Shown here: positions 3,240 to 33,088 of the stretch, one piece after another
Numbering within the stretch: position 1 is the first letter of the stretch
Layout: the number at the start of each line of letters is the position of its first letter
DNA from: Xestospongia bergquistia
Taxonomy: Eukaryota; Porifera; Demospongiae; Haplosclerida; Petrosiidae
Direction: 5' to 3'
DNA: 64,000 bases
Assembly: GCA_963965975.1 (NCBI GenBank)
Contig: OZ014425.1
Span: forward strand, 1,687,501 to 1,751,500
Translations under genes and position numbers: made by a program
Notes under the pieces: model-generated
Told to the model about the DNA's origin: nothing
Databases searched by the model: none
The model's input: the letters and a program-made list of their open reading frames with translations, nothing else

Positions 3240-3325
3240 TGTCTTGAGAGAGCGTGGTCACTTTAATATTCTCTTTATAATGCCCACCTGATTAAGTTGA
3301 CCCTGCAAACTGCAAAAGTGCAAAG
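3240..3325. promoter_or_regulatory. Divergent start region, module 1
   Basis: Only 86 bp separate the ATG of the minus-strand ANK-ROCO gene (3239) from the ATG-equivalent of the plus-strand FHA gene (3326). The same spacer is conserved at 17930-18008 and 26192-26280. Each transcript's 5' leader must overlap the other gene's first exon or lie in this spacer, so a shared bidirectional promoter is inferred. No TATA box was identified with confidence. Confidence 0.55.
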
Positions 3326-6300
3326 ATGTTTTGGACGTTCTCGTAGTCTTGGTGAGACAGCTCTGAAGACACAATTAAATATTGCACAACAATGAATATT
3401 TACATTAGAAGACTACATACACAGTAGAGAGAGACAATATCAGGTAAGACTACTGGTACATTGTCTGTTATGTCGATATGATCAGAGACCATAGGGGTAG
3501 GAACCAGGGGGGCTAGGGGGGCTTTAGCCCCCCTAATGTTGATTAAAGGGGGGCTTAGCCCCCCTAATATTGTTAACAAAGTAAAGTTACATGGAGATAT
3601 ATTCATCTGTCATCAACTTTGACAAGCTGGTGAACCAACTTTAAATACTTCAAGATTTTGTCTGAGTAAGTATGGCAAGCCAAGGGATAAAAAAATTACC
3701 AAGGTCAGCACAATGTGTGAAGTAATGTACATTAGCGACTTAGGAAAATCAATATTCACTGAGGTACACAAGCTTTTAACCGTTTATTTGACTGTGCCAA
3801 TGACATCCGATACAACAGAACAAATGTTCTCTTCACTTCGAAGACTGAAGAATTATTTAAGGTCCACAATGACTCAAAAGAGACTTAATAATGTAGTATA
3901 AATGCACACACACAGAGAGCATATTGATAGGGTAAATTTATTAAGTATCGCAAAGGATTTTGTAACCAGCAATGAGAGACGTGTAAACTATTTTGAACAT
4001 TATTAACATATTTTATTAGGTCATGTACATATATGTCATTTCTTTAATTCAGTCATAATTATCTGTTATCATTTAACATTTTTACAAGGTTTTCAAACTA
4101 AAAACATCTGGGAATGCAACCCCCTGCTCATAGAAGAGTTATTACTACTGATAATATTTTAGCCCCCCTAATCCCTACTATCTTCTTACCCCTATGTCAG
4201 AGACTGTTTCTTGTTGTAGACTACTATATCTCATCTTCATGGAGAACGTAGAGAATCACGTGATCACTATTCATCTGGTGTAGGTCAGTTTATCTCTCAA
4301 CGTAGAAGACGTGTTGGTAGAACACATGATATTATTATGTCTATGAGAAGTGTTGGATCTACATCATTTGAAGAAGGAAATGAAGTAGAAAATGGTAAGT
4401 AAAAGACAATTATCTATTGTAATGAGATCTACTTATAATCTACTGCTCATATTAACATTTAATTTCTAACAATATTTCAGCTTTAAATTATAATATACGA
4501 AATACTATGATCTGATTGGTCAATTGCAGTTTTTGAATCCCATACTAAACCTCTGAATTAATTTTGTCCATAACAATATCATTTGTCATATCATCTAATA
4601 ACTTGTAGTAACAATTATATTATTATTATATCACTAATATTAGTAACAAACAATATTAACAATATATTATATTAGTAATTAATGGAGTACATAGTGTTTG
4701 GTACTTCAAAGTTATTAACAACATAGCTAGTTAGGTTTTAAAGTTTGTATATGTGTATATATTATTATAAATACTTGACTTGTTATAATATTATAACATA
4801 TACAAACTATATTATAATGTACATATATTATAATGTACATATATTATAATGTAATATAGTTAGTAATATAGTGGATGTTTCTCTTATTATTTAGAGAATC
4901 TTCAAGCACCTCTTGGTGAATTCATCAGCCTTAAGTTAGTTAAAGCTCTTGAACCTGATGAAGCCACACCCATTCCATTTGTTATCCGACGTCTAGTTGG
5001 GTGTGTCGATCATGTTGGTCCAGAGGGTGTCACTCTGGGTACCTCTCCTCATTGTTCAGTAATATTACCAGCAGAGGCAGAGATCCAAAAAGAACATTGT
5101 CAAATTATATGGAGAGATGACAATGATAGTAATGATGACTTGGAAAGGACAGAAACAGGCAGACATTTATCTCGACAAAGGAGAGTAGGAGATGGTGGCC
5201 ATTTTATATTGAAGGATCTTACAGCTGGTACTGGTGTGTTTTATATCAGTCATGTGACACATCATGTGACAACACCTATTGATGAAGAAGAAATACCCAG
5301 TAGTGAAGAGTCTGTTGCCAGAGAAACAGATACTGTAGAAAGTGACAAATTTCCTATGGTATTAAGTTATGGTATACATTTTGTTACTGGTATATTAGTA
5401 TGGGAACTATCTGCTTTATCTCCTAGTGAAGTATTAACTGCTAAATTGTTCCATTTGGCTAAACAAAGGGATCTAGTACAACTTAAGGAACAAATTAATA
5501 AAATGGAGTCCTCTACTTTAAATGTTCCTACTCTTACAATTACAGGTTTGTTAAATCAATATATAAAATATATAATTGTAAAAATAACTTTATCAATAAC
5601 TTAATATCTTATTGTTTGTAGTTGATATTACTTTATAACTTTAGTCTCATCTTCATCCTCACATATCCCCAGGAAATAAATGACTTATCTTAGTTACAAT
5701 AATAACATTTAACTAGAAACATTAAGTACATAATCTACTATAATATCATATATAACATTAGGTCATAATAATTATATAAATCATATTAACAATATATTGT
5801 AACTAATGTATTAAACACATACTATATTATAATGATTTGACTCAAGTGTTGTTTATTAGTATTATACACATATAACTGATCTAGTTAGGACTTGTTCAGA
5901 CTTGTCCTAAATATATAAATTATAATACACATATTGTATTGTAGTGATATGACTTAATTGTTTATAGAATGTTTTAATTAATAGGTACTGAGGATAATGA
6001 ACAGAGTTCTATAAAGTTTTCAATTGACTCAATATTTTCAACTCCAATTCTTCCTTTAACATCTTATGATATTAATACTGAATATCAACCACCATCATAT
6101 GAAGGAGATGATAAATTTAATGCTTTATTTGCTCCTCGTAAATCATTTGGTATTACACAGTTCTCTCTTAACACACCCTCTACTGCCAATATTCGTCAAG
6201 TGCCACGCCTCCTACTTCATATTGCTATTGATAATAGTGATATAGAAATGGTAACTTATCTCTTATCAAGAGGAGCTAATGTAAGTGGGTGTGGTCATCA

Positions 6301-9300
6301 CTCTAGTCATTATTGTCTTTTGTTCTAATATAGGTTAACAAAGCAGCTAGTGAATTCCAATATACTGCTGTCCATTTAGCAGCATTACGTAATGATGATG
6401 TCATTATGACACTATTATTAAAATATGGAGCTGATGTAGAAATAAGAAATGCTGAACATTTAACTCCATTAGCTATGACAACTAATTACAGTGTTAGGTA
6501 AGTCTCAACCACACCCACTAATTATGTTCAAATATATTCTTTTAGAAAAATGTTACTGAACTCAGTTTTGTTATGTGCTGCAGCTGATGGTGGTGATATA
6601 TCAGAAGTGACACGCCTCCTGACAACCACACTCATTAGTCCCAATGTAAAGGGTTTAAGACATAAATGTGCACTCCATCTTGCAGCTGCCAAAGGATATC
6701 GAGAAATTGTTGAATTTCTTATATTGAATGGAGTAAGTTTGATTACATGATCCTTGATAGTGATGTGACAATCATGTGATTTTAGGTTGATGTTAATATT
6801 AGAGGAGGTAGTCGTCAACGTACAGCACTTCATTATGCCAGTTTAGGAGGTTATGCTGATGTCATTCAAATCTTATTAAGTGCAGGAGCTCATGAGTTTA
6901 CCAGAGATGCCGGAGGATATACTCCTCTTAATCTTTGTCAAGGAGATGCTTGTCGTCTTTTACATACTGTATGTCTGTTAATATATGTATGTATTTTATT
7001 ATTGTTGCTATAGAAACCAATGTCTCTGTGTCTAGCTGTACAAAGTGGTAACATTGATCAGGTGAAGATAATACTTGAACAAAGAGAATGTCATGAAAAT
7101 AGAGATGATGATGATGATGTTATTAATCTACGTAATGATCAGACACATGCTCCATTACATTTAGCATGTATTCTAGGATCTATGTAAGTATAATTCATCT
7201 AATTATACATCAATTAATACATTTATTATTTGATACTTGTTATCATTCATCCATTTTGAAAATATGGTAGAAGAAAATCCTGTATAATTAGGAATTGAAA
7301 TCAGGAGCTTTAGAATACTTACTTGTCTTGAATTCAAATCATTACAATTCTTTATTTATAATAAAGTTATTAACATTTTATCATTTAGGGATCTAGTACA
7401 GTTGTTAGTTTCATATGGTGCTCAAGTAGATATTCATGGTGGTAGTGATTCATGGACACCCTTGTTTTATGCTGCTATGTCAGGTGATTATCACATGACT
7501 AAAGTACAAGTATCATGTGACATTTTTATATATACATACAGGTCACATTCATTTAGTGAAATTTTTATTATCAGTTGGTGCTAATCCTGAAGTATGAGAT
7601 ATAGTGTAATGATATAGTATATGATTAGATGTATCTTATCACTATAGGAGGAGGACAGTCAAGGTAGTACTGTGAGGGAGAGATTGATAAAGGCAATAGA
7701 AGAGACTGAAGAATGTATGACACGTCTTAAACAACGAGAGAGATCAGCTGTTAGTTTACACTACCTATATACTAATAGATTAATATTGTTTGTTAATAAT
7801 TATTTAAAATATGTTATTAAGATCTCTTATTTTATAAGTAACTTTCAAATATTAGTTTAGTATCTCATGTTATCATTGAGTATCTTCTTTCTATCTTTTA
7901 GTCTGTTGTAGATACTAACCTTATTACAAGACTCTCTGTTAATATGTTAAGACAGGTATATAAACACTTATATCTCATTGTAATTATTGATTTTAATTAC
8001 AGGAGAGTTCCCCATCTTGTTCTGTTGAAAATGAATTAGAATGGCAAAATTTAAAACTCACAAAATTAAAGGAGGTCTTGTCTTTGTTGACCACACCCAC
8101 CGAGAAACTTCTGTCTGCTTTGAATGACAAGAATCTCTCAGAGTTTGTGTAAGACACTTCATATCTACCAGTATCTATTTTTACATAGTCATCCATTTTT
8201 TGTCTTACCATTATCTTTCCATCTATCTAGTTCTCTATTGGAGTCAGGCACAATATCACCTGATATATTACTGGGTAATAGACCAGTTTTAGTACAGATC
8301 TGTGAGGATGGATTATATGGTTTTGCTAAAGTTTTATTAGATCATGGAGCAAAAGTAATTTATTTGTAATAATACATTAACATGTACATGTACATGTAGG
8401 TGTGTCTAGATGGTGCAGCCAATGAAATCCCTCTTATAGTAGCAGCCAGTAATGGGGATGTCCCTTTATTAAAGTTATTAATAGAATATGGAGCTAATGT
8501 AAATGTCCAGGTTTGTATATTACATTATATTAATATATGATATCTATCTCTTTATAATGTAGAGTTGTGATACATTAAATACTGCATTACATGAAGCAGC
8601 ATCTACCAATGATATTGAAGTTGTTAACTATTTATTATCTGTTGGTGCTGATATAACATTAGTTAATATATCTGGTGAACAATCCTTTGATTGTACTACT
8701 ATATCAGAGATACGCAAGTAAGTAGACTGTCTGTTCATCCATTAATACTATTATCATTTAATTAATAAAATTAGTTAATTATATTTAATCTATTTTATTT
8801 AATCCATTCAGTTTATTTGTTTATCCTTTGTATTCATCCATTCTCCCATCTATTGATCCATTCATCTCATATATCCTCCCATTTATTGATCCATTCATCT
8901 CATCTATTGATCCATTTCATAGACTATTAGCTACTGGTAACAATAGATTATTGGTTGCTGTTATGGAGGATGACCAAACTGTTATATCTCATCTTGTATT
9001 AGAAGAGGGTGTGTCAGTTAATACAGAATATTATCATAATGGTTATACAGCATTACATCAAGCATGTGAGGAAGGATATGATGAGATTACACAATTACTA
9101 ATTGAACTGGGAGCTGATATTAACAAGAAGGTATGATAGTCATGTGATTTGTTTTGTCATCATGTGATTGTCACATGATTGTATGGTATATAATTAAAAC
9201 CTCTAAAGGCATTCTATATTAAGGATACTTTCACAATAAGGATAGTGGTTCAAAAGTGTTAGATGTTTCATTATACAGTATCACATGATTATCACATGTT

Positions 9301-10104
9301 TGTATTCTACATAATATTTGTTTATAGGGTGGACTGTATCTACAGACTCCATTACATATAGCTAGTCAGGGAAACCATCTTGAAGTGGCAAAGGTCCTTT
9401 TAGAACATGGAGCTAGAGTTGACATTAAAGACTCTGATGGCCAGGTACAACTAGTCAAACCTGTTTTATCAGCTAGTTTATATGTATGTATTGTACAGGT
9501 ACCCTTTGAAATTGCCTCAACAAACCAAATGCGTAAAGTACTTGTAGAAGCTCGTCAACTCCACCCTCCTCCCCCTCCACCATCATCCTCCTCAGATGAG
9601 GGGGTGGAGTCTGAAGGCAAGCTGTGTCTAATATGTATGGACAAAGTTATCAATACCATCATTTTACCATGTGGACATCAGGTTAATAATTACTTGTTTG
9701 GGGATTGGTCCCTATAATATTTGTTATCACAATATACTATTATTATAGACAGTAATAATAATGATAATTAACATGATAGTTACCTTGTTATATGATATGT
9801 ATTTAGTATTACATTGTTATGTTAACAAGATAGTTAATACATTAGATATGTGTTCATATAATATAGTACTATTATATTAACAAATTACTATAGACTATCT
9901 GAAGGTCAATTCAAAAATAGATCATGTTTTACTAATTATAGCAGCCCCTAGATTAATATAATAATATTAACTGTTTACATTAATAATAAAGTTTATATGT
10001 TCATTTTTCTTATGTAGGCATTCTGTATTGACTGTGTAACTCAAATTACACAATGTGCATTGGATAGACAATCTATTAGAGAAGTCATTCCTATTTTTAA
10101 ATGA
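3326..10104 (+). CDS. FHA-ankyrin-RING protein, copy 1 (exon 1 frameshifted)
   Basis: It is collinear with the intact 20-exon copy at 26281-33088 and very similar in exons and introns. Exons begin 3326-3443, 4220-4394, 4895-5545 and continue to a TGA ending at 10104. Exon 3 carries the FHA-like segment (LGTSPHCSVILP... then KEHCQIIWRD), exons 4-18 hold ankyrin repeats, and the last two exons hold a RING finger (CLICMD..., CGHQAFCIDC). The start exon has one extra T (ATGTTTTGG instead of ATGTTTGG), giving a stop after six codons. The other exons keep phase and I saw no further lesion. A later in-frame ATG in exon 2 (MSMRSVGS) could rescue it, or the copy may be dying. A hAT transposon lies in intron 1. 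The likely role is a ubiquitin ligase with protein-binding repeats; this is family inference. Confidence 0.75.
3490..4196 (+). mobile_element. Internally deleted hAT DNA transposon in FHA copy 1 intron 1
   Basis: The 707-bp insert is flanked by an 8-bp target duplication TCAGAGAC (3482-3489 and 4197-4204). Terminal inverted repeats are CATAGGGGTAGG on the left and CATAGGGGTAAG (reverse complement) on the right, with inner G-rich inverted blocks (GGGGGGCTTAGCCCCCC-like). Plus-strand residues near 3713-3901 include TTEQMFSSLRRLKNYL, the hallmark of the hAT C-terminal dimerisation domain, and a second block follows after a frame change to about 4006. The rest of the transposase is missing. Copies 2 (18163-18170) and 3 (26433-26440) retain the empty TCAGAGAC site. 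Confidence 0.92.
4395..4894 (+). other. Intron 2 of FHA copy 1
   Basis: AT-rich intron with no coding signal. It contains short repeats of TACATATATTATAATG near 4815-4850. It lacks about 720 bp present in the same intron of copy 3 (about 26951-27670). Confidence 0.7.
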
Positions 10105-10569
10105 ATTCCCCAATTTTTAATAATAAGTAATTTTTGACAAATGTTTTTGGGTTCTAGTTTTTTTTTTTAAACAATAAGTATCATTTTTTTGATAGAAGAT
10201 ATGAGAACAAGTAGGTGTGACTAATTGAGAAGAATTAACACAATTATTAATAGCAATGATAGGAGGTATACACATTATGAAATGAGGAATAAAGAATGAA
10301 ATGAAAATAGCAAGTTTATTGGCCAATAACACAAAAAACAATAACAATAGTACATTTACAGTAAACACATGTAATGATACATGATGTACTCATGTATGGT
10401 ATATAACATTAAACTTATAAATGATAATAATAAACTGAATAATTAAAGAAGCTGTGCCAATCATTTGCTAATACCAGGGGGAATTCACTACTTTATAGCC
10501 ACATTGGACTATTTTTAATTAATTGGATTTCAGCTGGAGTCTGTAATGACCATCATTTGACAGACCAGT
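10105..10569. other. Convergent 3' spacer between FHA copy 1 and KANSL1-like copy 1
   Basis: No gene seen. A plus-strand AATAAA at 10288 and a minus-strand AATAAA at 10315-10320 are candidate poly(A) signals for the two converging genes. The same spacer is present at 33089-33532 in module 3. Confidence 0.6.
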
Positions 10570-13240
10570 TTACAAAACTTGTTTGGTCAATTTAAGGACA
10601 ATACTGGGTTGCTGAGTAAAACTTTTCATTTGAGTGTTGACAGTCCATTGGGCAGAATTTGTAAGAGGGCACTCATCTGATGCATCTACAAGAGGTGTAG
10701 TAGACATTGTGGGACTGGAAAGGGGTGGAGCTGATAATCCAAGGGGCGTATGCACTGAGTGAGGTGGTATAGAGGTGTGTGATGAGTGAGGAAGTGGGGA
10801 AGGTGAAGATGAGGAACGTGAATAATCCAGAATGGGAACATATTGGATGACTTTTTTGGGAGGTGCTGTTGGATGAGTTAGAGCATCCATGTCTTTTTCA
10901 GCTAGAGGGAAACGCCGAGGTGGCCATGGTAACACTTGTGTCACAACCTCTTCCATTTCCATTCCTATACCAGGAAGTGGAGGAGAAGCTGAATGAGATG
11001 AATCAGGAGTTGATGATAGTTGAGGTGGGCGTGGTCTTTTACGATTGCCAGTAATAAAATTGAGGTATCTTTTTCTTTCCTTTGCCTCACATCTGTTGTG
11101 TCTATCAGCAAAAATTAGATCACTATCATCCTATCAAAATAAACAAAAAACATAACTTTGTCCTAAAAAATATAGTAATTATAACATTAAGTTAACCAGT
11201 AAGTAGTAAACATATGAAGCCACTATATACATGTAGATACATGTACATGTGTGTGTGTGACTGTACCTCTTCTTCATCACTGTCATCTATATCTCCATTG
11301 ATTTTTATCCCTTGATCAAGTTTTCTGTTCACATGATGAGAATTGAGTCCTGTCTCCTTCCCTTTATCAGTATCACCATTAACAAGGGGAACAGTGTCTA
11401 GTCCCATATTCTCTTCTACCTTGCGCCATTTTGGTGTAATGATTTCTTTGTATTCTAGCTTTTCTAGTCGAGATATAGATATAATGGATTGAGGTATAAC
11501 AATGTTGTCAATGTCGTATTGAGGAGTTGTGACACCTTTCTTCTTCTTAGATAACGAGGTGGGCGTGGCCGGGTGTGAGGAGTCTTCACAGTAGGCAGAA
11601 GTGTTAGCAGAGTGTCTTTTACGAGGCAACCCTAATTACCAGACATTATCATAATTGTATTATCAATATGTTGTGTACATAATTAACTTGGCTCAATATA
11701 GAGATGAGTCATTCTCAGAATGTCTAATCCCAAAATGTCTAATCCCATAATGTCTAATCCCAAAATGTCTAATCCCATAATGTCTAAAGGTGATAACTGA
11801 GGTGTTAATATAACAGAGTATTTCAAGAGTTCTTTTTGCAACAAGATGGTGATGCTGACAAGATCCTTATTTTTGCAACAAATAAGAACCTTCATCTCTT
11901 AGCAGAAGCAAACTCTATTTATGTGGATGGTACTTTTGAGGTTTGTCCAAGGCTTTTCTTCCAAGTATTCACAATTAATGCTTTTATTCAAGGCCAACAG
12001 TTCCTCTTTGTATGGTTTACTACCTGGGAATAGAAGCATTGAATCATACATTTCTGCAATTAGACACTGTGTTGTTTCATTTGATTTTTAAATATAGCTT
12101 TTCAGATTAGACAATCAATTCATTAACACCTCAGTTATCATGTTTAGACATTATGGGATTAGACATTCTAGGATTAGACATTCTGGGATTAGACATTTTG
12201 GGATTAGACATTCTGGGACGTTTCCATAGAGATAACATACAAATACATTTGTTTTCAAAAGGAAATAAATATAATTAATTCATATTAGACAATAAATAAC
12301 AGTTTATTATAAAGTATGACTATTTTATTAGTGATAAATTTATTACTGACCTTTGCTGTTCTGTCAGTGGGTGTGTCCAGTGGTGATGGAGAAGGTGAGA
12401 ATGATTTGCTCCTCTCTAATCCTATAACATTATAGTAACAAGATGATATTAGTGTAATGAATACACTTACTTAATAAAGGTCTGTTCAGTGGTGTGTGGT
12501 CAAATGGAGGAAGATAACTAGCAGCCTTTCTTCTCTTGGAAAGTGGAAGAGAAGCATAAGAATGTTTCTGTAGTACTTGATGTATTGCAGTATCTAACCA
12601 GAGACTAGATGGAATATCTAAGAGAGACAAACACACAGTTATTAACATGGGATGTGTTTTCAATTGTCACAAGTTGTTATAAATAAACTACAACATTACT
12701 ATAGATCTATTGTTATATAAGTACATCAGGTAAGTGATAATTAACATAATGTCACACTACAGTTAAGACTGTACACACAGCAGCTAACATATATTATACT
12801 ACCATTATAACTCAATAACCTATTAACATCCTTTATTAAAGGAAGAACATCTTTAGATCAAACCAATGTAGGAAGATAACACATTCTACAACATAGTATC
12901 CTGTTAATAACATTACCTGATGGTTGTGATAAAAATGGATGATAAGATGAATCCAATTGAGTTTTATCATTCTCCTCTCTCCTTGTTTTTTGTTTTCTCT
13001 CTTTTCTCATCTGTACAAGTTCCCTCTGAGGGGCATGACGAAGACCTCGAGTTCTTGCACATGTATTGTTTCCTTCATCCATTAATAGAACTGGGAAGGG
13101 GTACCCTAAAATATCTCTGACTTGTAATGGATGTGTCATCAGAGAGGGGTTTTAAAGAAGCATCTGTCGCACTTGACAGTGACAAGGTGTACTAGATATA
13201 CCATTAGATGGAACCTTAGATGACTTTAAAAGAGATACTG
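10570..13240 (-). pseudogene. KANSL1: KANSL1 3' fragment, 5'-truncated duplicate
   Basis: It matches exons 2-6 of the complete KANSL1 at 33533-38488: part of exon 2 (to about 13240), 12471-12617, 12351-12415, 11267-11631 and 10570-11130. The PEHE region is recognisable ([22 protein letters not shown]). Exon 1 and most of exon 2 are absent; similarity stops near 13240, where sequence of the ANK-ROCO copy 2 tail begins. Two lesions separate it from copy 3: a TAA in exon 2 (MLL-stop where copy 3 has MLLS), and exon 4 is 65 instead of 66 nt (GACAGAACAGC versus GACAGAAACAGC), breaking phase into the PEHE exons. A MULE-like element sits in the intron between exons 4 and 5. Probably a non-functional duplication by-product; it might still be transcribed. 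Confidence 0.85.
11706..12225 (+). mobile_element. MULE-like (Mutator superfamily) element with transposase fragment
   Basis: The 520-bp insert is flanked by an 8-bp duplication ATAGAGAT (11698-11705 and 12226-12233). The ends are inverted repeats built from a tandem 14-bp word AATGTCTAATCCCA: AGAATGTCTAATCCCAAAAT occurs in from both ends, preceded by about 11 less similar terminal bases. A plus-strand reading frame at about 11836-12033 contains YVDGTFEVCPRLFFQVFTI, typical of the first catalytic block of MULE transposases (the D of DGTF). The rest of the enzyme is absent, so the element is non-autonomous. Copy 2 (19779-19786) and copy 3 (34663-34670) keep the empty site. Confidence 0.85.
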
Positions 13241-13292
13241 GCCTAAAAATTGTTTCACCTTGTATGTGAACATATCTCAGTTAGTATCATAT

Positions 13293-13600
13293 TCATTGAG
13301 ACATAGGGAGGCCTAGATGTTTACGTATCTCGTTAGCTTTTGTTTTGTTTTTAACAATACCTCCCTCAATAGCAGTAATTATTGTCTTCCAATTAACAGG
13401 TAATGACTGTGTAGTTAACCAGCTGTGAATGACTTCAGAAAGTTTAACAATGTTACTATCTTGACTTTGTTTTAAACCATTTAAAATATTGTGAGGAACT
13501 TTCAAGGATAAACCGATTTCATGCCATTTGTCATCAATATCAGATAATAGTTCAAGTAGTATGTATTCATTAGGAACAGTATTTAATATATCTGGAGTAG
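13293..13600 (-). other. Death-domain exon of ANK-ROCO copy 2
   Basis: The 308-nt terminal exon has acceptor TATAG|CTACTCC. With the phase-1 G of the preceding exon it reads ATPDILNTVPNEYILL..., then the death-fold pattern W..IG..L.V....L, I.KL..VI..WL, LPVNW.TI and A..I...LG, ending in LGLPMSQ-stop. It is the last exon of the copy 2 gene if the donor at 14086 is used. A fragment of the same exon lies at about 19930-20010 downstream of copy 3. Confidence 0.75.
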
Positions 13601-17929: not shown

Positions 17930-18008
17930 TGTTTTGAGAGGGAGTGGCTTCAAATTTAATATTCTTTTTATAATGCCCACCTGACCTGCAAACTGCAAAA
18001 GTGCAAAG
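17930..18008. promoter_or_regulatory. Divergent start region, module 2
   Basis: A 79-bp spacer between the ATG of ANK-ROCO copy 2 and the start of the broken FHA copy 2. It is homologous to 3240-3325 and 26192-26280 but lacks a short segment (TTAAGTTGACC) present in both others. It presumably still drives the minus-strand gene. Confidence 0.5.
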
Positions 18009-18360
18009 ATGTTTGGACGTTCTCGTAGTGTTGGTGAGACAGCTCTGAAGACAATTAAATATTGCACAACAAAGAATATCTACATTAGAAGACTACATAC
18101 ACAGTAGAGAGAGACAGTATCAGGTAAGACTACTGGTACATACATTGTCTGTTATGATATGATCAGAGACTGTTTCTTGTTGTAGACTACTATATCTCAT
18201 CTTCATGGAGAACGTAGAGAATCACGTGATCAATATTCATCTGGTGTAGGTCAGTTTATCTCTCAACGTAGAAGACGTGTTGGTAGAACACATGATATTG
18301 TTATGTCTATGAGAAGTGTTGGATCTACATCATTTGAAGAAGGAAATGAAGTAGAAAATG
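18009..18360 (+). pseudogene. FHA-ankyrin-RING copy 2, remnant of exons 1-2
   Basis: Exon 1 equivalent 18009-18123 is 115 nt instead of 117: a CA is lost (CTGAAGACAATT versus CTGAAGACACAATT), shifting frame to a stop before the exon ends. Exon 2 equivalent 18186-18360 is full length. Intron similarity continues to about 18500 and then stops. All FHA, ankyrin and RING exons are gone. The junction is followed by unrelated sequence and then a KANSL1 scrap near 19675, so one deletion/replacement removed most of both genes. Confidence 0.9.
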
Positions 18361-19840: not shown

Positions 19841-19919
19841 GTTATACCTTTCTTATCTATCAATAGAAAATCAGTGTTAGGAAGACTGTACAAAATATTT
19901 CAGTTTGATAAGGTAAGTG

Positions 19920-20377: not shown

Positions 20378-20662
20378 TTAACAGAATGAACTAACCAATG
20401 TTTCCAGATAATCTTCATATTTCTTTGCAACATTATTTTGATTAATAGTTCTTAAAGAAGATAATAAATTTCTTCTTGTTGCATTTTCAGCCTTTTCTTG
20501 AATCCATAAGTTATACACACGACTTAAATCACCATTACATCCATTAAGATTTATGTTGTCCAGTTCTAGTTGTGTTCCTAATTGAAACCACTCTGAAGTT
20601 CTGGCATGGGTATTTAACTCTACCAGTGAAGGTTGTTGGTTCAAAAGTTGATCCCACGATTG
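20378..20662 (-). other. Death-domain exon of ANK-ROCO copy 3
   Basis: A 285-nt phase-0 terminal exon encoding QSWDQLLNQQPSLVELNTHA then the death-fold pattern W..LG.QLEL....L..., VYNLWIQEKAENATRRNLLSS and NVAKKYEDYLETL, ending SSFC-stop. Its acceptor lies directly after a CT-rich microsatellite. It is not the same exon as the death domain at 13293-13600. Confidence 0.8.
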
Positions 20663-23600
20663 CTAGAGAGAGAGAAAGAGAGAGAGAGAGATAACAAGTG
20701 AGATATGTACACTTGTCTAAATGTACATTTTTTATATAACAAATGAAATTAGTTGCAACACAATTAATTACTATAACTTTTAACTTGTTCAATGATAGTT
20801 TTAGTTATCAAACAGGTAAGATTTAACTTAGGTTGAAGACTTGAAAGTTGTCAGTATAGCTACAGTGAGATTTTCTTAAGTCACATAGTAATTTGTACAA
20901 ATATAATAACACAATAGCGCACTTACTATAGGAGGTCTTATTGATCTTTGTGAAGTAGTGTTATGTCTATGAGATTGTGACTCTAATTCAATGTCATATG
21001 ATGGTCGTTTGGTAAGACTAGTAATATTATCATCATAGTCTGAGTTATCCTCCTCATCTGTTCTCTGTCTCTTTCTCTCTTGTCTCTGACTACTAATGGA
21101 GGATTCCCTGCTACTACTCCCATTGTCTACTTCATCTCTGTTAGTTGATCTCTTACTGGAGGGTGGAGTAGATGATTGCTCACATGATCTCTTACTAAGT
21201 AGACTTCTCTCTGTCATATATAGATCCATGTAAAAAAGATTACATTAAAGCTGTTTCTTACCTAATATATTTGTAAGGATCACTTCATTCATACTATCAT
21301 TAACTTCAGTTACATTAGAGGACTCTATTAATGATAATACTCAATACTACTATATAGTATATTAATAAGTAATACCTTGAGATTGGGTACATAGTACTTC
21401 ACTTGATACACTAGTAGTAGTGAGCTCTGATATCTAGTATGTGTTACATAATATGTAATGAATACAAGGGAAGAGACAATATACCTTTGTTGACCATACC
21501 AGGTGTCTTCTCTCTTGTAAATGCATCATTTCACAGGTTAAAACACATTCTGCTGCTAAATCATTTACATCAACTATAGCAGGATGAGGAGGATATGAGA
21601 TACACTCAGGACAGCAACAAGTAAAACCAAAGAAGTGACATGATTTATAAGTGTAGTGTAGTGATTGTGTGACTGTCTTTAGACCTTTGTGTAGTGTGGA
21701 GATAATCTGTTTACAGAGGACATCTAATGATAACTTTGGAGTCATTTGGTCAACCCAAACTTCAAGGTAAGTAGCTCGACTAATAAGAGTGACACGATCA
21801 TGATATTTACCAATGATAAAGGTAATCTTGTTACGATGATGGACAATTTTATCAAGTAATTTCCATTCTAGCTCTGATTTAGATGTTTGACTGAGGAGAT
21901 AAACTACTAGACAACACAACATACCCACAGGAGTGTAACCACACTCAAAATAGATTGTCAAAGGAGCAGGACAAATGGACTGATTTCTTTGATCCTCTTC
22001 AACTCGAGCAGGTTTTAAAGCACAAGGCATAAAGTAATAGTTCTCAGTCTTATGACCAACTTTCATCTTCATAGGACCAGCTACAATATGTAGGTGTTTT
22101 AATAGTGATACTAGTCTGGTGGGTGTAAGAGAGTCTCCTTTCCTAGAAGAAAGCTGTTTTACATGTGACTCACTAAATCGGCCATTATCACGAAACTCCT
22201 TTTCAGTTGAGGCACTTCCTAACTCTTTAAAAGTAAAACATGATGTGATGAGTTGTGTAATTCTATCAAATACAAGTTGGAGGTCAGTGATCACAATATT
22301 TCCTAGTCCCTCTACCTCTGGATAATACATAATAACACCCACTCTGTGATGTAAAAACCAGAGAACTGACTTGAAGTCTTCTCTATCTTTGATTCCACAC
22401 TCCTGAGCCATTTTATAACATGTATCTAGAAGATGAATAGGCTTTTTACTCTTTCGTAATTTTAGACTAAAGGCACACCAAGAAGCAGGAACAGGTAACT
22501 CATGAAACTTGTTAGAAATGACTCTGTGGAGTAAAGAACGTAACTCTTCTATTTCCTTTTGATCATTTCTTGTGTCAAGAGGAAAAATCACTTGATCTGG
22601 AGTTGAATATTGTACAAGATCTTCTCTAAAAAGTTCACCACTATCTTGTATCTTCAATTTAAGATGGTTGTTGACTAAATCCACTTTAGCTTGAGCTTCA
22701 GTTTCATTCGGAAAACAGTCTCTGTGAGTAGCTATGAGGAATGCAGCAGGTTCTGACTCATCATTCAGTGGTACTTTATCAAAACTCCATCCAATAGTAT
22801 TTTGTCTCAAACAAGCTATACTAGCTAGAGAACGAAAGATGACCTCTTCATGAGTGAGGGATGTTTGATAAGGTTTAGAATCACCACTAGATGATCGATA
22901 TGTAATTTCATAACGACTTGTCAAGTCTATTGTTAGATCAAACACAAGTAGATTGATAGCTGGACCAGTGATAAGAGCTGGTAACATTTCATGGAACTCA
23001 GGTTGTCCTCCAGTATCAATGATATGTAACATAGCATGACTGTCTTTGGTGGTTTGCTGAGATCTCTCTTCATATATCTTCCGCTTTTTGGCTGGAATAT
23101 TCTCAACTAATTTTGATAGAGAATTAATACCTTCTTTATGTTTTGCACCAGTGGTCTCAACTTTTTTTCTAAATCCTTTTTCTTTCTCTTTTTCCAATTC
23201 TTCATCTATTTCCTGAGTGCCTTCTTGTTTCTCTAGATCTGTTTTGTTCATTTCATTGTCATCTTCAATCTCCTTTTCTTTTTCCTCTACAAATCTTTTT
23301 TCAATCTTATTTTCAAATGTCTCAGTGATGTCTTCACTTATGTTCATTTCATTGTCATCTTCAACATCCTTTTCTTTTCCCTCCATTTTGTATTCCGGAT
23401 CCAATTCAGCTATATTTTGTAAATTGCCCTCTTCGTATGTCATAGCATTTGCAATTACACTTTTGCTTTCAAAATTAGTGGCATGATGACTTTGTGAATT
23501 ATTAGTTGCAATTTTTTCTAGCACTAAAACAGCTTCTTCATCTAGATCTTGTTTTCTCCATTCTGTGGAACCTTCCTTTATTAGACCAGGGACTACTACA

Positions 23601-26191
23601 CTTTGTTTTTGTAGTTTACAAAATGAATTAACTTGTATGGCTGCATCAACCACACCAGTACTAAGAGAAAGTTCTGTAAGAGACTCATTGAGTAATCTCT
23701 TCTTCAAAGTATTCTTACCAGCACCTGGTGGTCCTGTTAAGATACACTTGACAACACACAACATTGCCTCTCCACTAGTAAGCATTGCTTGTTGATACTT
23801 GCAAATACTTGTTTTCATTGATGTTAACTTACCAAACTTGTCTTTAGCAGTGATCTTGCTGCAGCCTTGCTGAACAAGATGTCGTACAATGTCTGCATTT
23901 CCAGACTGACAAGCTAATTCTAATGGTCTCAGTCCGTCAAAATTCTCAGTTTCAATATTACATAGAGAGTGGTTAGTTAGAATTTTGACAATTTTAAAAT
24001 GACCCTTTTCACAAGCTATATGTAATGGGGTGTTGTCACCATAAAAATCATTCACATTACACCCAACGTCTTCAACAAGATGTTGTACAATCTCTACATT
24101 TCCAGAATAACAAGCTAAATGGAGTGGTCTCTGTTGATAATCATTCTCAGTGTCAATATTAGCTTGAGAACACTTTGTTAGGATTTTAACTTTTTCAAAA
24201 CAACCCTTCTCACATGCTATATGTAATGGAGTGTTGCTAGATTGACTCTTAGCAGTGACATCACATTTTTTCAATTCAACAAGATGTTGTACAATATCTA
24301 CATTTTCAGATTGACAAGCTATATGAAGCGGTCTCTTGTGCTGTTTATTCTCCACTTCAATATTACATGAAGGGTGGGCAGTTAGAATTTTGACTACTTC
24401 AGAATGACCCTTTTCACATGCTATGTGTAATGGAGTATTGCCATAACAACATTTTACTGTAACTTCACAGTCTTTCTCTTGAACGAGATGTATTACAATG
24501 TCTAAATTCCCAGATTCACATGCTTTATGGAGTGGTCTCTGGTGATGAGTATTTTCAACTTCAATATTACATCGGGGGTGAGCAGTTAGAATCTTGACTA
24601 TTTCAAAGTGACCTTTTTCACATGCTACATGTAATGGCGTGTCACTAAAGTTATCTTTAGCAGTAACATCACAGTTTTTTTCTACCACAAGGTGTCGTAT
24701 AATGTCTATACTTCCAGATTGACACGCTAAATGGAGTGGTCTTTGCTTGCAATCATTTTCAGCTTCAACATCACATTGAAGATGAGATGTTAGAACTTGG
24801 ACCATCTCAAAATGACCCTCATTACATGCTATGTGCAATGGACTTCTGTCAAGAATATATCGCTTACTTTCAAGAATAAAAGTCCCTATTCTAACAAGAT
24901 ACTGGGCAACATCTACACATCTCAATTCTACTGCCTCACAAAGTGGGTAGTCTGACTCAAAAATGTAGCTCACATTAGTGTCCTTGCTAATAAAAACAGG
25001 CTGATCTTCCTGACGTCTCTTTTTTAAATATTCCTTGAAGCCAATCTTACTAACTAACATTTCAATCATTGATCCTGGTACATTATCTTCTACTGCTGAC
25101 ATGATACATTGATGTATGCTATCAACACTAACCTTCTCTCTCAGGAACATAACTATTTCTTTACGTCCCTGACAAAGTGCATAATGGAGTGGTTGCCATC
25201 CTGTATTGTCTAATACTTCAAGATTACATTGTGGTTTAGAAGCTAGATATTCTACTACTGCTAAATGACCATAATTACATGCATTATGTATTGGAGTGTA
25301 TCCTTTGTCATCTGATACATTGATATCACAATCTCCAGCAACAAGTGCATTAACTATTTCCAAATAACCAAGTCTAGCAGCATGATGTAATGGATACATT
25401 CCACAGTTATTACTTCTAGTCTCACAGTTACATTGAGGGTGACTAAGGAGATATTGAACTATTGGTAGATGACCATACTCAATAGCTCTATGTAGAGGAG
25501 TGTATGCCTCACTATCTAAACCATTTACATCACATCCTACCTCATTAACAAGGTACTGTACTATATCTAGATCACCTGATCTAGCTACTTGATGAAGGGG
25601 AGGAGAACTACTGTCTTTCCATTGAATAGTGACACTACTTTGAAAAATTTGTTTTGCTAAATACACGTGGTTTTCTTGACGTACTCTAGTCATGAAACCT
25701 CTAAATGATATTGCTCTCAATAATATTGTCATTATATCCCAATTTGGTGCCACTTTAATACACTGATATATATCATCAGGATCCAATATATAGTCAGGAT
25801 TAGTACATATCAATGATACAATGTTACTGTGACCATTTATACTGGCAAAATAAAGAGGGGTTTCCCCTTGTAAAGTAGGAAGGCCAAAATCACAATGATG
25901 ACTGCATATTAGATACTCCACAAACTCTTTTTTTCCAGCACCACAAGCCAAATGAAGTGGCGAGGAACCTTCACTGTTACGCAAAAAACTACAACTTACA
26001 ATTTCAGAAGCGGCAATAAGATATTGTAATACGTCTAATCCACAGTGGGAAGAACTGCAACACAAATGAAAGAGTGTGTTCCCTTGATCATCACGTACCC
26101 AAGGAGACGTACCACTCATAACAAGTCTCTTAACAAGATCGAGATCGCCTTTAGAACAGGCATCACAAATCTCTATTGTTGACTGTTCCAT
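20378..26191 (-). CDS. ANK-Roc-COR-death domain GTPase, copy 3 (complete; P-loop Ser to Asn)
   Basis: Five phase-consistent exons (21485-26191, 21376-21433, 21262-21324, 20927-21210, 20378-20662) give about 1,798 residues. It starts MEQSTIEICDACSKGDLDLV; the frame is open further upstream, but that part crosses the FHA gene's first exon and is not needed. About 800 residues of ankyrin repeats come first, then the nucleotide-binding P-loop GPPGAGKNT (about 820), a Glu-rich insert, DTGGQPEF (about 1060), ATHRDC (about 1152), a COR-like region (PASWCAFSLKLRKSKKP...WFLHHRVGVIMYYPEVEGLG), a Ser/Arg linker and a death domain in the last exon. The P-loop has Asn where copy 2 and nearly all P-loop GTPases have Ser/Thr, the Mg2+ ligand. 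Binding or cycling should be altered, as in Ras S17N (inference). Complete otherwise. Confidence 0.88.
20664..20691. repeat. (AG)n microsatellite forming a polypyrimidine tract
   Basis: AGAGAGAGAGAAAGAGAGAG on the plus strand is (CT)n on the transcribed strand, ending directly at the CTAG acceptor of the copy 3 death-domain exon. The remainder of this intron (to 20926) shows nothing else. Confidence 0.8.
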
Positions 26192-26280
26192 TGTTTTGAG
26201 AGGGAGTGGCTTCAAATTAAATATTCTCTTTATAATGCCCACCTGATTAAGTTGACCCTGCAAACTGCAAAAGTGCCAAG
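26192..26280. promoter_or_regulatory. Divergent start region, module 3
   Basis: An 89-bp spacer between the ATG of ANK-ROCO copy 3 (26191, minus) and the ATG of the intact FHA gene (26281, plus). This is the only module in which both genes look intact, so it is the reference for the shared promoter arrangement. Confidence 0.6.
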
Positions 26281-29200
26281 ATGTTTGGACGTTCTCGTAG
26301 TCTTGGTGAGACAGCTCTGAAGACACAATTAAATATTGCACAACAAAGAATATCTACATTAGAAGACTACATACACAGTAGAGAGAGACAATATCAGGTA
26401 AGACTACTGGTACATTGTCTGTTATGATATGATCAGAGACTGTTTCTTGTTGTAGACTACTATATCTCATCTTCATGGAGAACGTAGAGAATCACGTGAT
26501 CAGTATTCATCTGGTGTAGGTCAGTTTATCTCTCAACGTAGAAGACGTGTTGGTAGAACACATGATATTATTATGTCTATGAGAAGTGTTGGATCTACAT
26601 CATTTGAAGAAGGAAATGAAGTAGAAAATGGTAAGTAAAAGACAATTATCTATTGTAATGAGATCTACTTATAATCTACTGCTCATGTTAACATTTAATT
26701 TAAAACTGATTGTTTGCTAACAATATTTCAGCTTTAGATTATATGAGAACAAAATACTGTAATCTGATTGGTCAATCGACACTTTTAAATCCCATACTAA
26801 ACCTCTGAATTAATTTTGTCCATAACAATATCATTTGTCATATCATCTAATAACTTGTAGTAACAATTATATTATTATTATATCACTAATATTAGTAACA
26901 AACAATATTAACAATATATTATATTAGTAATTAATGGAGTACATAGTGTTTAATTATAATTAAATAGTTGTTAATATCTTCAATATCATCATATGTTGTC
27001 TATTATAGAACAGTTAGTAATTACATGTTCTTTAGAACTTCAGATCTTTACTTTTGAATTATTATAATATAAAAACTTTAGATATTGTGTTCCCTCATTT
27101 TTATATGAACTGTGAATGCATATCTAATTAATGTTGGGGGTGGAGCCTGAGGTTATTAGTATTTCCATGATAGTTTCATTACATGTAGTACAGTATCTAT
27201 TTTACAGTATTAGTATGAACTTTGAATATCATGTTTGATAAATAAGTGTTTGTTAGTTAGTTTACAATAAACCAAACTATTCTCATCTCAAATACAAATA
27301 TCTACTAATTTTATAATATTAATGATAATATACAAACCAAACTGTTCTCATCTCAAACACAAATACTGTAAATTAGGAAAGTTTCATCATGAAAAAAGTC
27401 TGAACATTGGACATTGTATTAAAAATAAACACACTAACATTATTATACATTGAAATATATATAATAGTAATATTTATAGTATGTAATTGTGTTAGAAATG
27501 TGTTCAACATATTAATTTTTTACTTGAAACTTTCTTAACACAAAGGTTCCCAATCTATGATATATCTAGTAATTTTATAATAATAATGATAACTTATAAA
27601 AACATGAAAACTTAACACAATAAGTTAATATGTATATTATAATAATTAAAGTATTATATTGTAAGGTTTCCTTTGGTACTACAAAGTTATTAACAACATA
27701 GCTAGTTAGGTTTTAAAGTTTGTTTATGTATATATATTACTATAAATATTTGATTTGTTATGTTATATACAAACTATATTATAATGTACATATATTATAA
27801 TGTACATATATTATAAATTAATGTACATATATTATAATGTAATATAGTTAGTAATATAGTGGATGTTTTTCTTATTATTTAGAGAATCTTCAAGCACCTC
27901 TTGGTGAATTTGTCAGCCTTAAATTAGTTAAAGCTCTTGAACCTGATGAAGACACACCCATTCCATTTGTTATCCGACGTCTAGTTGGGCGTGTCTACCA
28001 CGTTGGTCCAGAGGGTATCACTCTGGGTACCTCTCCTCATTGCTCAGTAATATTACCAGCAGAGGCAGAGATCCAAAAAGAACATTGTCAAATTATATGG
28101 AGAGATGACAATGATAGTAATGATGACTTGGAAAGAACAGAAACAGGCAGACATTTATCTCGACAAAGGAGAGTAGAAGATGGTGGCCATTTTATATTGA
28201 AGGATCTTACAGCTGGTACTGGTGTGTTTTATATCAGTCATGTGACACATCATGTGACAACACCTATTGAAGAAGAAGAAATACCTAGTAATGAAGAGTC
28301 TATTGCCATAGAAACAGATACTGTAGGAAGTGACAAATTTCCTATGGTATTAAGTTATGGTATACGTTTTGTTACTGGTATATTAGTATGGGAACTATCT
28401 GCTTTATCTCCTAGTGAAGTATTAACTGCTAAATTGTTCCATTTGGCTAAACAAAGGGATCTAGTACAACTTAAGGAACAAATTAATAAAATGGAGTCCT
28501 CTACTTTAAATGTTCCTACTCTTACAATTACAGGTTTGTTAAATCAATATATAAAATATATAATTGTAAAAAGAACTTTATCAATAACTTAATATCTTAC
28601 TGTTTGTAGTTGATATTACTTTATAACTTTAGTCTCATCTTCATCCTCACACACCCCCAGGAAATAAATGACTTATCTTAGTTACAATAATAACATTTAA
28701 CTAGAAACATTAAGTACATAATCTACTATAATATCATTATAATACTAGGTCATAATAACTATATAAATCATATTAACAATATATTGTAACTAATGTATTA
28801 AACACATACTATATTATAATGATCTGACTCAAGTGTTGTTTATTAGTATTATACACATATAACTGATCTAGTTAGGACTTGTTCAGACTTGTCCTAAATA
28901 TATAAATTATAATACACATATTGTATTGTAGTGATATGACTTAATTGTTTATAGAATGTTTTCATTAATAGGTACTAAGGATAATGAACAGAGTTCTATA
29001 AAGTTTTCAATTGACTCCGTATTCTCAACTCCAGTTCTTCCTTTAACATCTTATGATATTAATACTGAATATCAACCACCATCATATGAAGGAGATGATA
29101 AATTTAATGCTTTATTTGCTCCTCGTAAATCATTTGGTATTACACAGTTCTCTCTTAACACTCCCTCTACTGCCAATATTCGTCAAGTGCCACGCCTCCT

Positions 29201-32200
29201 ACTTCATATTGCTATTGATAATAGTGATATAGAAATGGTAACTTATCTCTTATCAAGAGGAGCTAATGTAAGTGGGTGTGGTTATCACTCTAGTCATTAT
29301 TGTCTTTTGTTCTAATATAGGTTAACAAAGCAGCTGGTGAATTCCAATATACTGCTGTCCATTTAGCAGCATTACGTAATGATGATGTCATTATGACACT
29401 ATTATTAAAATATGGAGCTGATGTAGAAATAAGAAATGCTGAACACTTAACTCCATTGGCTATGACAACTAATTACAGTGTTAGGTAAGTCTCAACCACA
29501 CCTACTAATTATGTTCAAATATATTCTTTTAGAAAAATGTTACTGAACTCAGTTTTGTTATGTGCTGCAGCTGATGGTAGTGATATATCAGAAGTGACAC
29601 GCCTCCTGACAACCACACCCATTAGTCCCAATGTAAAGGGTTTAAGACATAAATGTGCACTTCATCTTGCAGCTGCCAAAGGATATCGAGAAATTGTTGA
29701 ATTTCTTATATTGAATGGAGTAAGTTTGATTACATGATCCTCGATAGTCATGTGACAATCATGTGATTTTAGGTTGATGTTAATATTAGAGGAGGTAGTC
29801 GTCAACGTACAGCACTTCATTATGCCAGTTTAGGAGGTTATGCTGATATCATTCAAATCTTATTAAGTGCAGGAGCTCATGAGTTTACCAGAGATGCCGG
29901 AGGATATACTCCTCTTAATCTTTGTCAAGGAGATGCTTGTCGTCTTTTACATACTGTATGTCTGTTAATATGTGTATGTATTTTATTATTGTTGCTATAG
30001 AAACCAATGTCTCTATGTCTAGCTGTACAAAGTGGTAACATTGATCAGGTCAAGATAATACTTGAACAAAGAGAATGTCATGAAAATAGAGATGATGATG
30101 ATGATGTTATTAATCTACGTAATGATCAGACACATGCTCCATTACATTTAGCATGTATTCTAGGATCTATGTAAGTATAATTCATCTAATTATACATCAA
30201 TTAATACATTTATTATTTGATACTTGTTATTATTCATCCATTTTGAAATATGGTAGATGAAAATCCTGTATAATTAGGAATTGAAATCAGGAGCTTTAGA
30301 ATACCTACTTGTCTTGAATTCAAATCATTATAATTCTTTATTTATAATAAAGTTATTAACATTTCATCATTTAGGGATCTAGTACAGTTGTTAGTTTCAT
30401 ATGGTGCTCAAGTAGATATTCATGGTGGTAGTGATTCATGGACACCCTTGTTTTATGCTGCTATGTCAGGTGATTATCACATGACTACAAGTACAAGTAT
30501 CATGTGACATTTTTATATATACATATAGGTCACATTCATTTAGTGGAATTTTTATTATCAGTTGGTGCTAATCCTGAAGTATGAGATATAGTGTAATGAT
30601 ATAGTATATGATTAGATGTATCTTATCACTATAGGAGGAGGACAGTCAAGGTAGTACTGTGAGGGAGAGATTGATAAAGGCAATAGAAGAGACTGAAGAA
30701 TGTATGACACGTCTTAAACAACGAGAGAGATCAGCTGTTAGTTTACACTACCTTTATACTAATAGATTAATATTGTTTGTTAATAATTATTTAAAATATG
30801 TTATTAAGATCTCTTATTTTATAAGTAACTTACAAATATCAGTTTAGTATCTCATGTTATCATTGACTATCTTCTTTCTATCTTTTAGTCTGTTGTAGAT
30901 ACTAACCTTATTACAAGACTCTCTGTTAATATGTTAAGACAGGTATATAAACACTTATATCTCATTGTAATTATTGATTTTAATTACAGGAGAGTTCCCC
31001 ATCTTGTTCTGTTGAAAATGAATTAGAATGGCAAAATTTAAAACTCACAAAATTAAAGGAGGTCTTGTCTTTGTTGACCACACCCACAGAGAAACTTCTG
31101 TCTGCTTTGAATGACAAGAATCTCTCAGAGTTTGTGTAAGACACTTCATATCTACCAGTATCTATTTTTACATGGTCATCCATTTTTTGTCTTACCATTA
31201 TCTTTCCATCTATCTAGTTCTCTATTGGAGTCAGGCACAATATCACCTGATATATTACTGGGTAATAGACCAGTTTTAGTACAGATCTGTGAGGATGGAT
31301 TATATGGTTTTGCTAAAGTTTTATTAGATCATGGAGCAAAAGTAATTTATTTGTAATAATACATTAACATGTACATGTACATGTAGGTGTGTCTAGATGG
31401 TGCAGCCAATGAAATCCCTCTTATAGTAGCAGCCAGTAATGGGGATGTCCCTTTATTAAAGTTATTAATAGAATATGGAGCTAATGTAAATGTCCAGGTT
31501 TGTATATTACATTATATTAATATATGATATCTATCTCTTTATAATGTAGAGTTGTGATACATTAAATACTGCATTACATGAAGCAGCATCTACCAATGAT
31601 ATTGAAGTTGTTAACTATTTATTATCTGTTGGTGCTGATATAACATTAGTTAATATATCTGGTGAACAATCCTTTGATTGTACTACTATATCAGAGATAC
31701 GCAAGTAAGTAGACTGTCTGTTCATCCATTAATACTATTATCATTTAATTAATAAAATTAGTTAATTATATTTTATCTATTTTATTTAATCCACTCATGT
31801 CTATCCTATGTATTCATCCATTCCTCCCATCTATTGATCCATTCATCTCATATATCCTCCCATTTATTGATCCATTCATCTCATCTATTGATCCATTTCA
31901 TAGACTATTAGCTACTGGTAACAATAGATTATTGGTTGCTGTTATGGAGGATGACCAAACTGTTATATCTCATCTTGTATTAGAAGAGGGTGTGTCAGTT
32001 AATACAGAATATTATCATAATGGTTATACAGCATTACATCAAGCATGTGAGGAAGGATATGATGAGATTACACAATTACTAATTGAACTGGGAGCTGATA
32101 TTAACAAGAAGGTATGATAGTCATGTGATTTGTTTTGTTATCATGTGATTGTCACATGATTGTATGGTATATAATTAAAACCTCTAAAGGCATTCTATAT

Positions 32201-33088
32201 TAAGGATACTTTCACAATAAGGATAGTGGTTCAAAAGTGTTAGATGTTTCATTATACAGTATCACATGATTGTCACATGTTTGTATTCTACATAATATCT
32301 GTTTATAGGGTGGACTGTATCTACAGACTCCATTACATATAGCTAGTCAGAGAAACCATCTTGAAGTGGCAAAGGTCCTTTTAAAACACGGAGCTAGAGT
32401 TGATATTAAAGACTCTGATGGCCAGGTATAACTAGTCAAACCTGTTTTATCAACTAGTTTATATATATGTATTGTACAGGTACCCTTTGAAATTGCCTCA
32501 ACAAACCAAATGCGTAAAGTACTTGTAGAAGCTCGTCAACTCCACCCTCCTCCCCCTCCACCATCATCCTCCTCCTCAGATGAGGGGGTGGAGTCTGAAG
32601 GCAAGCTGTGTCTAATATGTATGGACAAAGTTATCAATACCATCATTTTACCATGTGGACATCAGGTTAATAATTACTTGTTTTGGGGTTGGTCCCTATA
32701 ATATTTGTTATCACAATATACTATTATTATAGACAGTAATAATAATGATAATTAACATGATAGTTACCTTGTTATATGATATGTATTTAGTATTACATTG
32801 TTATGTTAACAAGATAGTTAATACATTAGATATGTGTTCATATAATATAGTACTATTATATTAACAAATTACTATAGACTATCTGAAGGTCAATTCAAAA
32901 ATAGATCATGTTTTACTAATTATAGCAGCCCCTAGATTAATATAATAATATTAACTGTTTACATTAATAATAAAGTTTATATGTTCATTTTTCTTATGTA
33001 GGCATTCTGTATTGACTGTGTAACTCAAATTACACAATGTGCATTGGATAGACAATCTATTAGAGAAGTCATTCCTATTTTTAAATGA
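26281..33088 (+). CDS. FHA-ankyrin-RING protein, intact copy 3
   Basis: Twenty exons joined in phase give about 1,125 residues: 26281-26397, 26456-26630, 27883-28533, 28972-29267, 29321-29484, 29533-29719, 29773-29955, 30001-30170, 30375-30469, 30529-30578, 30635-30736, 30889-30942, 30990-31135, 31218-31341, 31387-31497, 31550-31704, 31904-32111, 32309-32425, 32480-32665, 33002-33088. The N-terminus (MFGRSRSLGETALKTQL...) is helical and basic. Exon 3 has an FHA-like fold signature (TLGTSPHCSVILP, KEHCQIIWRD, FILKDLTAGTGVFY), a phosphopeptide-binding domain, with Thr replacing the usual Arg after the first Gly. Ankyrin repeats fill exons 4-10 and 14-18, split by a coiled-coil-like stretch in exons 11-13. 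The C-terminal RING has CLIC, CGH and CIDC with final CALD. Probably an E3 ubiquitin ligase; substrate unknown. Confidence 0.85.
26951..27670. other. Extra 720 bp in FHA intron 2 of module 3
   Basis: Flanks CATAGTGTTT and GGTACT(A/T)CAAAGTTATT are adjacent in copy 1 (near 4700) but 720 bp apart here. The insert is AT-rich, without open frames, inverted ends or an obvious target duplication. It is either an unidentified insertion or a deletion in copy 1. Confidence 0.5.

Follow-up and report, generated by a model that had tools for sequence, protein, structure and literature searches.

The stretch analysed here is a 64,000-nucleotide window of the Xestospongia bergquistia genome (C15:1687501–1751500; the assembly comprises 146 Mb on 21 contigs), in which genes for ROCO GTPases stand head to head with genes encoding an FHA-like stretch, ankyrin (ANK) repeats and a RING finger. 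We refer to the ROCO copies as R0–R3, to their FHA-ANK-RING partners as F0–F3, to the copies of a neighbouring KANSL1-like gene as K, and to positions in the left flank of the window by negative numbers. Three divergent junctions were located in the window, with the ROCO genes on the minus strand and the heads of the FHA genes on the plus strand, start to start. The spacers between the two ATGs measure 86, 79 and 89 bp at junctions 1, 2 and 3, exactly the spacing of 79–89 bp that had been put forward in the original prediction, and a fourth junction (R0/F0, 86 bp, −12069/−11982) lies about 12 kb to the left of the window. A shared divergent promoter region for the two genes is plausible. While the divergent arrangement was borne out, the accompanying claim of an FHA-ANK-RING gene in all three modules was not, because F1 is frameshifted and F2 is only a stub.

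Three genes make up the copied segment, whose copying gives the four ROCO-FHA junctions: a ROCO gene of ANK-Roc-COR structure, in most cases ending in a Death-type tail, the divergent FHA-ANK-RING gene and the KANSL1-like gene. The three modules in the window are mutual duplicates and their agreement is not independent evidence, so a reading as three independently conserved pairs was rejected; the locus cautions against taking the similarity of duplicates for conservation. When the start of R3 together with its spacer was used as a query, 12 matches were obtained genome-wide, and only four of them, all in this cluster, covered the full length. Two close ROCO paralogues that have no FHA head, R4 and R5, aligned over bases 1–70 or 1–71 only, with homology breaking off no more than two bases away from the codon at which ROCO starts (base 69). 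Six places on C4 matched the first 48–51 bases only. Upstream of R4 and R5 lie open frames of at least 90 codons (L026:1266–2765 and L027:1032–2534) that are similar to each other and point in the same orientation rather than divergently; one scanned piece of these frames gave no match in Pfam.

Each ROCO gene is built of one very large exon, which carries the ankyrin array, Roc and COR-A, followed by small C-terminal exons. The large exons of R0–R3 are all open through Roc and COR (4/4), and the open frame of R1 extends over 1906 codons (−2460 to 3257). COR-A was matched at 37.8 bits in R2 and 36.3 bits in R3, both above the cut-off of 35.3 bits, and all four copies are present in the genome-wide list of COR-A matches. 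Roc scored 31.1 bits in R2, over the 27-bit cut-off, and 24.8 bits in R3, under it. The succession of Roc and COR identifies these genes as ROCO GTPases. The Death domain (PF00531; cut-off 22.6 bits) was found in R0 (28.5 bits) and R3 (22.9 bits), and no Pfam Death match was obtained in the tail exon of R2 or in the scanned part of the R1 tail. The ANK-Roc-COR(-death) architecture originally proposed is therefore present in R2 and R3 as far as ANK, Roc and COR-A are concerned, with the reservation on the Roc score of R3, but its Death part was matched in R3 and not in the tail exon of R2. A PDB search with R3 gave ankyrin-type chains among the matches listed. The ankyrin arrays contain 204-bp tandem units (87–1876, 17204–17864 and 23873–24842), and those of R1 reach 8.8 copies with 92% matches, a recent expansion of the array.

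Like known ROCO GTPases (LRRK1/2, DAPK1, MFHAS1 and the sponge ANK-ROCO-Death proteins), these genes combine ankyrin repeats, a Roc containing a P-loop and a DTGG motif, COR-A and, at the C-terminus, a Death domain. Nine named relatives of the ROCO core were found among 100 matches, all from Amphimedon queenslandica with 44–62% identity over 35–100% of the core, some of them annotated as "Death domain-containing" or as "COR domain" proteins. The genes differ from known ROCO GTPases in the long distance between P-loop and DTGG (an acidic insert of 229–282 residues), the very high number of copies, the lack of a kinase domain match in R2 and R3, and an unusual P-loop in R3. The motif GxxxxGK[ST] is present in R0, R1, R2, R4 and R5, whereas R3 reads GPPGAGKN. 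With R4, R5 and the homologue P0121 also carrying Ser at the last position, Ser is found in the six other sequences compared, and the Asn of R3 may have arisen recently or be polymorphic. The S17N form of Ras is the analogue of an Asn at this position, and by this analogy GTP binding by R3 may be poor.

The ROCO cores of the other copies are 92–94% identical to R3 at the DNA level, yet the Death-type tail exons differ strongly. Protein identity in the tails is 19% both for R0 and R2 and for R2 and R3, the comparison of the R0 and R3 tails gave no match, and R1 aligns to the R3 tail over just 24 residues. The R0 tail is 45% identical to P0208 of A. queenslandica, and the R2 tail is 27% like the Death region of the same protein. 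A swap of the C-terminal domain or its fast divergence, together with turnover of the 204-bp ankyrin units, would fit a receptor-like family.

The ROCO repertoire of this genome is a more interesting discovery than the pair itself. At least 146 COR-A matches were found (150 of 171 candidates scored), 105 of them over the cut-off; these are counts of loci, not of checked genes, and may include pseudogenes. The matches are all more than 2 kb apart and spread over 14 contigs, and 80 are grouped into 15 clusters with at least three members each (for example C11:6.37–6.47 Mb, C12:5.39–5.54 Mb and C10:1.40–1.65 Mb), so that over half of the loci are in tandem clusters. Some have Death domains: with 150 of the 983 Death candidates scored, no fewer than eight loci have a same-strand Death match at most about 3 kb downstream. 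An FHA partner is present at 4 of the 146 loci. The number of COR-A loci is two to three times the largest printed ROCO count found, namely 47 in a brown alga, as given in the accessible part of a paper claiming the record (PMC11378527). The brown-algal expansion is comparable in that an enlarged ROCO family carries repeat arrays proposed as variable receptors with a candidate immune role; there, however, the portion of the paper at hand gives at most 47 genes in each of four species, with leucine-rich repeats and mostly dispersed positions (PMC11378527), instead of ankyrin repeats, clusters and occasional Death domains. Excerpts of two further papers describe an expansion of Death/TRADD-N proteins in Amphimedon (PMC8195603) and, for sea anemones, the combination of Roc/COR with Death and TIR (PMC5094078). 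Searches of the open-licence PMC literature found no paper on the ROCO/FHA pair or on a sponge ROCO expansion. These loci are a candidate repertoire of receptors similar to nucleotide-binding leucine-rich repeat (NLR) receptors in an early-branching animal.

The FHA-ANK-RING gene has 20 exons, which encode a short N-terminal stretch, the FHA-like stretch, many ankyrin repeats and the RING. F3 is the sole intact copy (1/4), and about the first 700 residues of its model are backed by P0001, an apparently spliced homologue; no relatives of P0001 were found in scans of genome-contig and viral-contig collections. The other three copies are broken or truncated. In F1, one additional nucleotide in exon 1 leads to MFWTFS and a stop after six codons, leaving an in-frame ATG in exon 2, and exon 1 of F2 is frameshifted by a 2-nt deletion. 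F0 lacks the stretch matching 27856–30259, which corresponds to exons 3–8 including the FHA exon, and its exons 2 and 9 are out of phase with each other as judged by exon lengths. Exons 1–4 of the gene gave 12 matches in the genome (13/13 candidates scored), all in this cluster, with the FHA exon at two places, only here, and exons 1–2 in four copies. That exons 1–2 form a separate small gene was considered and rejected, because P0001 joins them to the FHA exon. Intron 1 of F1 carries an insertion (3490–4192) with an open frame that we take to be hAT-transposase-like.

The canonical FHA motif comprises GR, S-R-x-H and N/H-G-T. In all eight sequences covering the motif, GT replaces GR and the canonical Arg is thus missing, while the His is kept and the Ser is retained in P0001 only; the strongest FHA match of the genome (L028, 67 bits) has GR. 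The Pfam FHA scores of F3 (17.3 bits), P0001 (18.8 bits) and P0229 (13.9 bits) are all below the cut-off of 20.7 bits. By its residues, the stretch does not conform to the canonical FHA motif. Because of the GT for GR and the low scores, reading of phospho-threonine by this stretch is unlikely, and the earlier proposal that the FHA domain reads a phosphorylation is doubtful. Predicted models of the F3 exon and the homologue P0229 had a mean predicted local distance difference test score of 36.8 and 39.5, respectively, too poor for a fold search. A PDB search with alignment A1 returned ankyrin-type chains because the repeats of P0001 sat in the profile, and the trimmed FHA piece gave two weak, unrelated matches.

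The RING is well supported as a RING finger (zf-C3HC4_3, 44.0 bits over a cut-off of 27), and its last ligand position is Asp (C-x2-D), as in the RING of RBX1. With an FHA-like stretch, ankyrin repeats and a C-terminal RING together, the protein is similar to FHA-RING ubiquitin ligases, such as CHFR and RNF8, and to ankyrin-RING ligases of the XBAT/XB3 type (weak Pfam match). It differs from these in its degenerate FHA part and in the order FHA-ANK-RING.

The K gene is duplicated in three modules and is represented by a 0.18-kb piece in the fourth, K0 containing an inverted 178-bp piece; K3, the sole copy scanned, gave a PEHE match of 27 bits, under the 34-bit cut-off (E 7e-6). Because K was copied as well, co-copying is not special to the ROCO and FHA genes. 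Between F1 and F3 (exons 2–20 without exon 10), 18 synonymous and 22 non-synonymous changes were counted, corresponding to a synonymous divergence (dS) of 0.025, a non-synonymous divergence (dN) of 0.0089 and a dN/dS of 0.36. In contrast, the ROCO cores of R0–R3 (1533 bp, six pairs) have a dS of 0.11–0.16, with a dN/dS of 0.21–0.43. The ROCO copies are thus about five times more diverged in dS than F1 and F3, indicating that the genes were not multiplied in step: either duplication of the FHA-K block came after that of ROCO, or the block was homogenised by conversion. Calling the two genes a co-duplicated pair is therefore too simple. In a tree of the ROCO cores (9 of 21 inner branches open), the FHA-headed copies do not form one clade, R1 grouping with R4 (99/94) and R0 with R2 (100/97). 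Gene conversion probably blurs this tree, which for that reason does not allow the pair to be dated with any confidence.

We also looked for the pair in other assemblies. The protein search scored 7986 candidates, of which 100 passed, and linkage was read from identical contig sizes, with only the longest contig of each homologue cluster on record. Among the FHA-exon homologues, five are close (P0221–P0225, 83–94% identical), and three of these share an exact contig size with ROCO homologues: P0224 with P0121 (98%) at 1538468 bases, P0223 with P0128 (75%) at 98872 bases, and P0225 with P0126, P0131, P0132 and P0198 (68–75%) at 335303 bases. For the remaining two, the contigs measure just 1355 and 1336 bases, which does not suffice to judge linkage. 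P0132 begins with MLNLKPLPLKT-MEQST, which corresponds to the R2/R3 spacer translated in frame (NLKPLPLKT, followed by MEEST or MEQST); P0122, P0124, P0125, P0129 and P0207 begin with a different leader. From this spacer peptide and the same-sized contigs, we infer that the junction is older than the split from the relative carrying P0132. For five distant FHA homologues (44–46%; longest contigs of 8472, 9198, 35579, 848452 and 12631 bases), none of the contig sizes occurred among the 100 ROCO matches, a weak negative, since scoring was confined to the best candidates and each cluster was represented by its longest contig alone. All ten FHA-exon homologues are unnamed entries (sources ena and lgn). 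The pair seems to be retained in close sponge relatives.

Taken together, these data are probably best explained by a tandemly duplicated segment of a compact sponge genome, in which a ROCO gene is copied with its bidirectional promoter and the FHA gene is carried along, for the most part as a passenger. The ROCO promoter would lie within the spacer and overlap the first FHA exons, so that each retained ROCO copy would keep an FHA head and the junction would persist. The pair would then mostly illustrate the joint copying of neighbouring genes. In A. queenslandica, 45% of genes are head to head and almost one third appear to use bidirectional promoters, according to the accessible part of PMC4773876; the divergent geometry alone is therefore ordinary for a sponge. 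The ROCO proteins would probably be intracellular receptors with ankyrin arrays from an NLR-like, repeatedly duplicated family, with GTP-dependent switching of Roc-COR and recruitment through the C-terminal Death domain. F3 is probably a ubiquitin ligase, with ankyrin repeats predicted to find the substrates, and would work without ROCO or, at most, in loose association with it. Several observations weigh against this explanation. F0 retains exons 1–2 and 9–20 with clean splice sites. The differences between F1 and F3 are fewer in exons (1.3%) than in introns (2.0%; downstream DNA, 1.8%), and because of this and the dN/dS of the two copies, F1 may still be constrained, using the later start. 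The low dN/dS of the ROCO genes may be partly due to gene conversion. Moreover, the linkage seems to persist in other assemblies, in one of them at identities of 68–75% for ROCO and 83–86% for the FHA exon, which is longer than a recent accident would require.

A second reading, which overlaps with the duplicated-segment explanation and to which we give a little less than an even chance, treats each junction as one regulatory unit, co-transcribed from a shared bidirectional promoter while the products have unrelated jobs. The short distance between the ATGs leaves little space for two promoters, and bidirectional promoters are frequent in A. queenslandica in the available text of PMC4773876, but transcription of either gene could begin at a distal or internal site. 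A shared promoter as such is likely. The pair seems to have survived at least one species split, which makes co-regulation testable.

It is improbable, in our judgement, that R3 and F3 are dedicated co-expressed partners, in which, by analogy with plant receptor pairs, the ROCO protein would sense and the ligase would act on a shared pathway. Plants have head-to-head paired NLRs such as RPS4/RRS1. The short homologous spacer at four junctions, the apparent linkage in other assemblies and the spacer peptide of P0132 all favour such a partnership, as do co-regulated head-to-head immune pairs described in the accessible parts of PMC11298796 and PMC9528088; like CHS3-CSA1, R3 and F3 are divergent linked genes, one of them from a duplicated receptor-like family. 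Unlike in the plant pairs, however, the partner is ligase-like rather than a second receptor, and its copies decay. The FHA gene is broken in three of four modules in which ROCO stays open, an FHA head is missing at 142 of 146 COR-A loci, the FHA motif is degenerate, and the contigs of distant FHA homologues, one of 848 kb, have no counterpart in size among the ROCO matches, which counts little. With four of four ROCO genes open and one of four FHA genes intact, the two were not retained intact together. The functional partnership of the original prediction is thus unproven and on balance unlikely.

There is little to suggest that F1 and the heads of F0 and F2 still give rise to truncated proteins or serve as antisense leaders that control the ROCO genes: exon 1 of F0 is open, exons 1–2 persist in four copies and exon 2 differs from F3 at only 1, 2 and 2 of 175 positions (F1, F2 and F0), but exon 1 is frameshifted in F1 and F2, exons 2 and 9 of F0 are out of phase, and the copies are possibly just young. 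Equally hard to credit is the boldest analogy, an animal counterpart of the plant paired receptors in which one divergent promoter would serve a hypervariable ANK-ROCO-Death receptor and a ligase partner kept through speciation, the FHA-like fold would dock without phospho-binding, and the Asn in its P-loop would render R3 constitutively inactive in the manner of Ras S17N, leaving it to regulate the sister copies that bind GTP.

Table 1. Positions of the genes, exons and spacers described in the text (window numbering)
Feature	Position	Strand	Remarks
R1, ANK part of ROCO copy 1	1–3239	−	ATG at 3239; Roc-COR left of window
Divergent spacer 1, 86 bp	3240–3325		between ATGs of R1 and F1; junction 3239/3326
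F1, FHA-ANK-RING gene copy 1	3326–10104	+	20/20 exons, splice sites conserved
K1, partial KANSL1-like (PEHE) copy	10573–13243	−	alignment to 33536–36281
R2, ROCO copy 2	13293–17929	−	shortened ANK array, Roc, COR-A, Death-like tail exon 13293–13600
Divergent spacer 2, 79 bp	17930–18008		between ATGs of R2 and F2; junction 17929/18009
F2, FHA gene remnant	18009–18360	+	exons 1–2 of 20
R3, ROCO copy 3	20378–26191	−	large exon 21485–26191 (ANK, Roc, COR-A), small exons, Death exon about 20378–20662
R3 P-loop codon AAT (Asn, residue 827)	23711–23713	−	AGT (Ser) in R0, R1, R2
Divergent spacer 3, 89 bp	26192–26280		between ATGs of R3 and F3; junction 26191/26281
F3, sole intact FHA-ANK-RING gene	26281–33088	+	20-exon model, 1125 aa
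F3 exon 3, degenerate FHA-like stretch	27883–28533	+	
F3 exons 19–20, RING finger	32480–33088	+	exons 32480–32665 and 33002–33088
K3, KANSL1-like (PEHE) gene region	33536–36543	−	K1 alignment ends at 36281
Death-type tail exons of ROCO copies	13293–13600, 20378–20662; flank −17079 to −16499		

To the right of the duplicated segment, Pfam matches point to ALIX-like, HEXIM, bZIP/Maf and CLASP_N-type genes (41425–48406 and 59297–59743).

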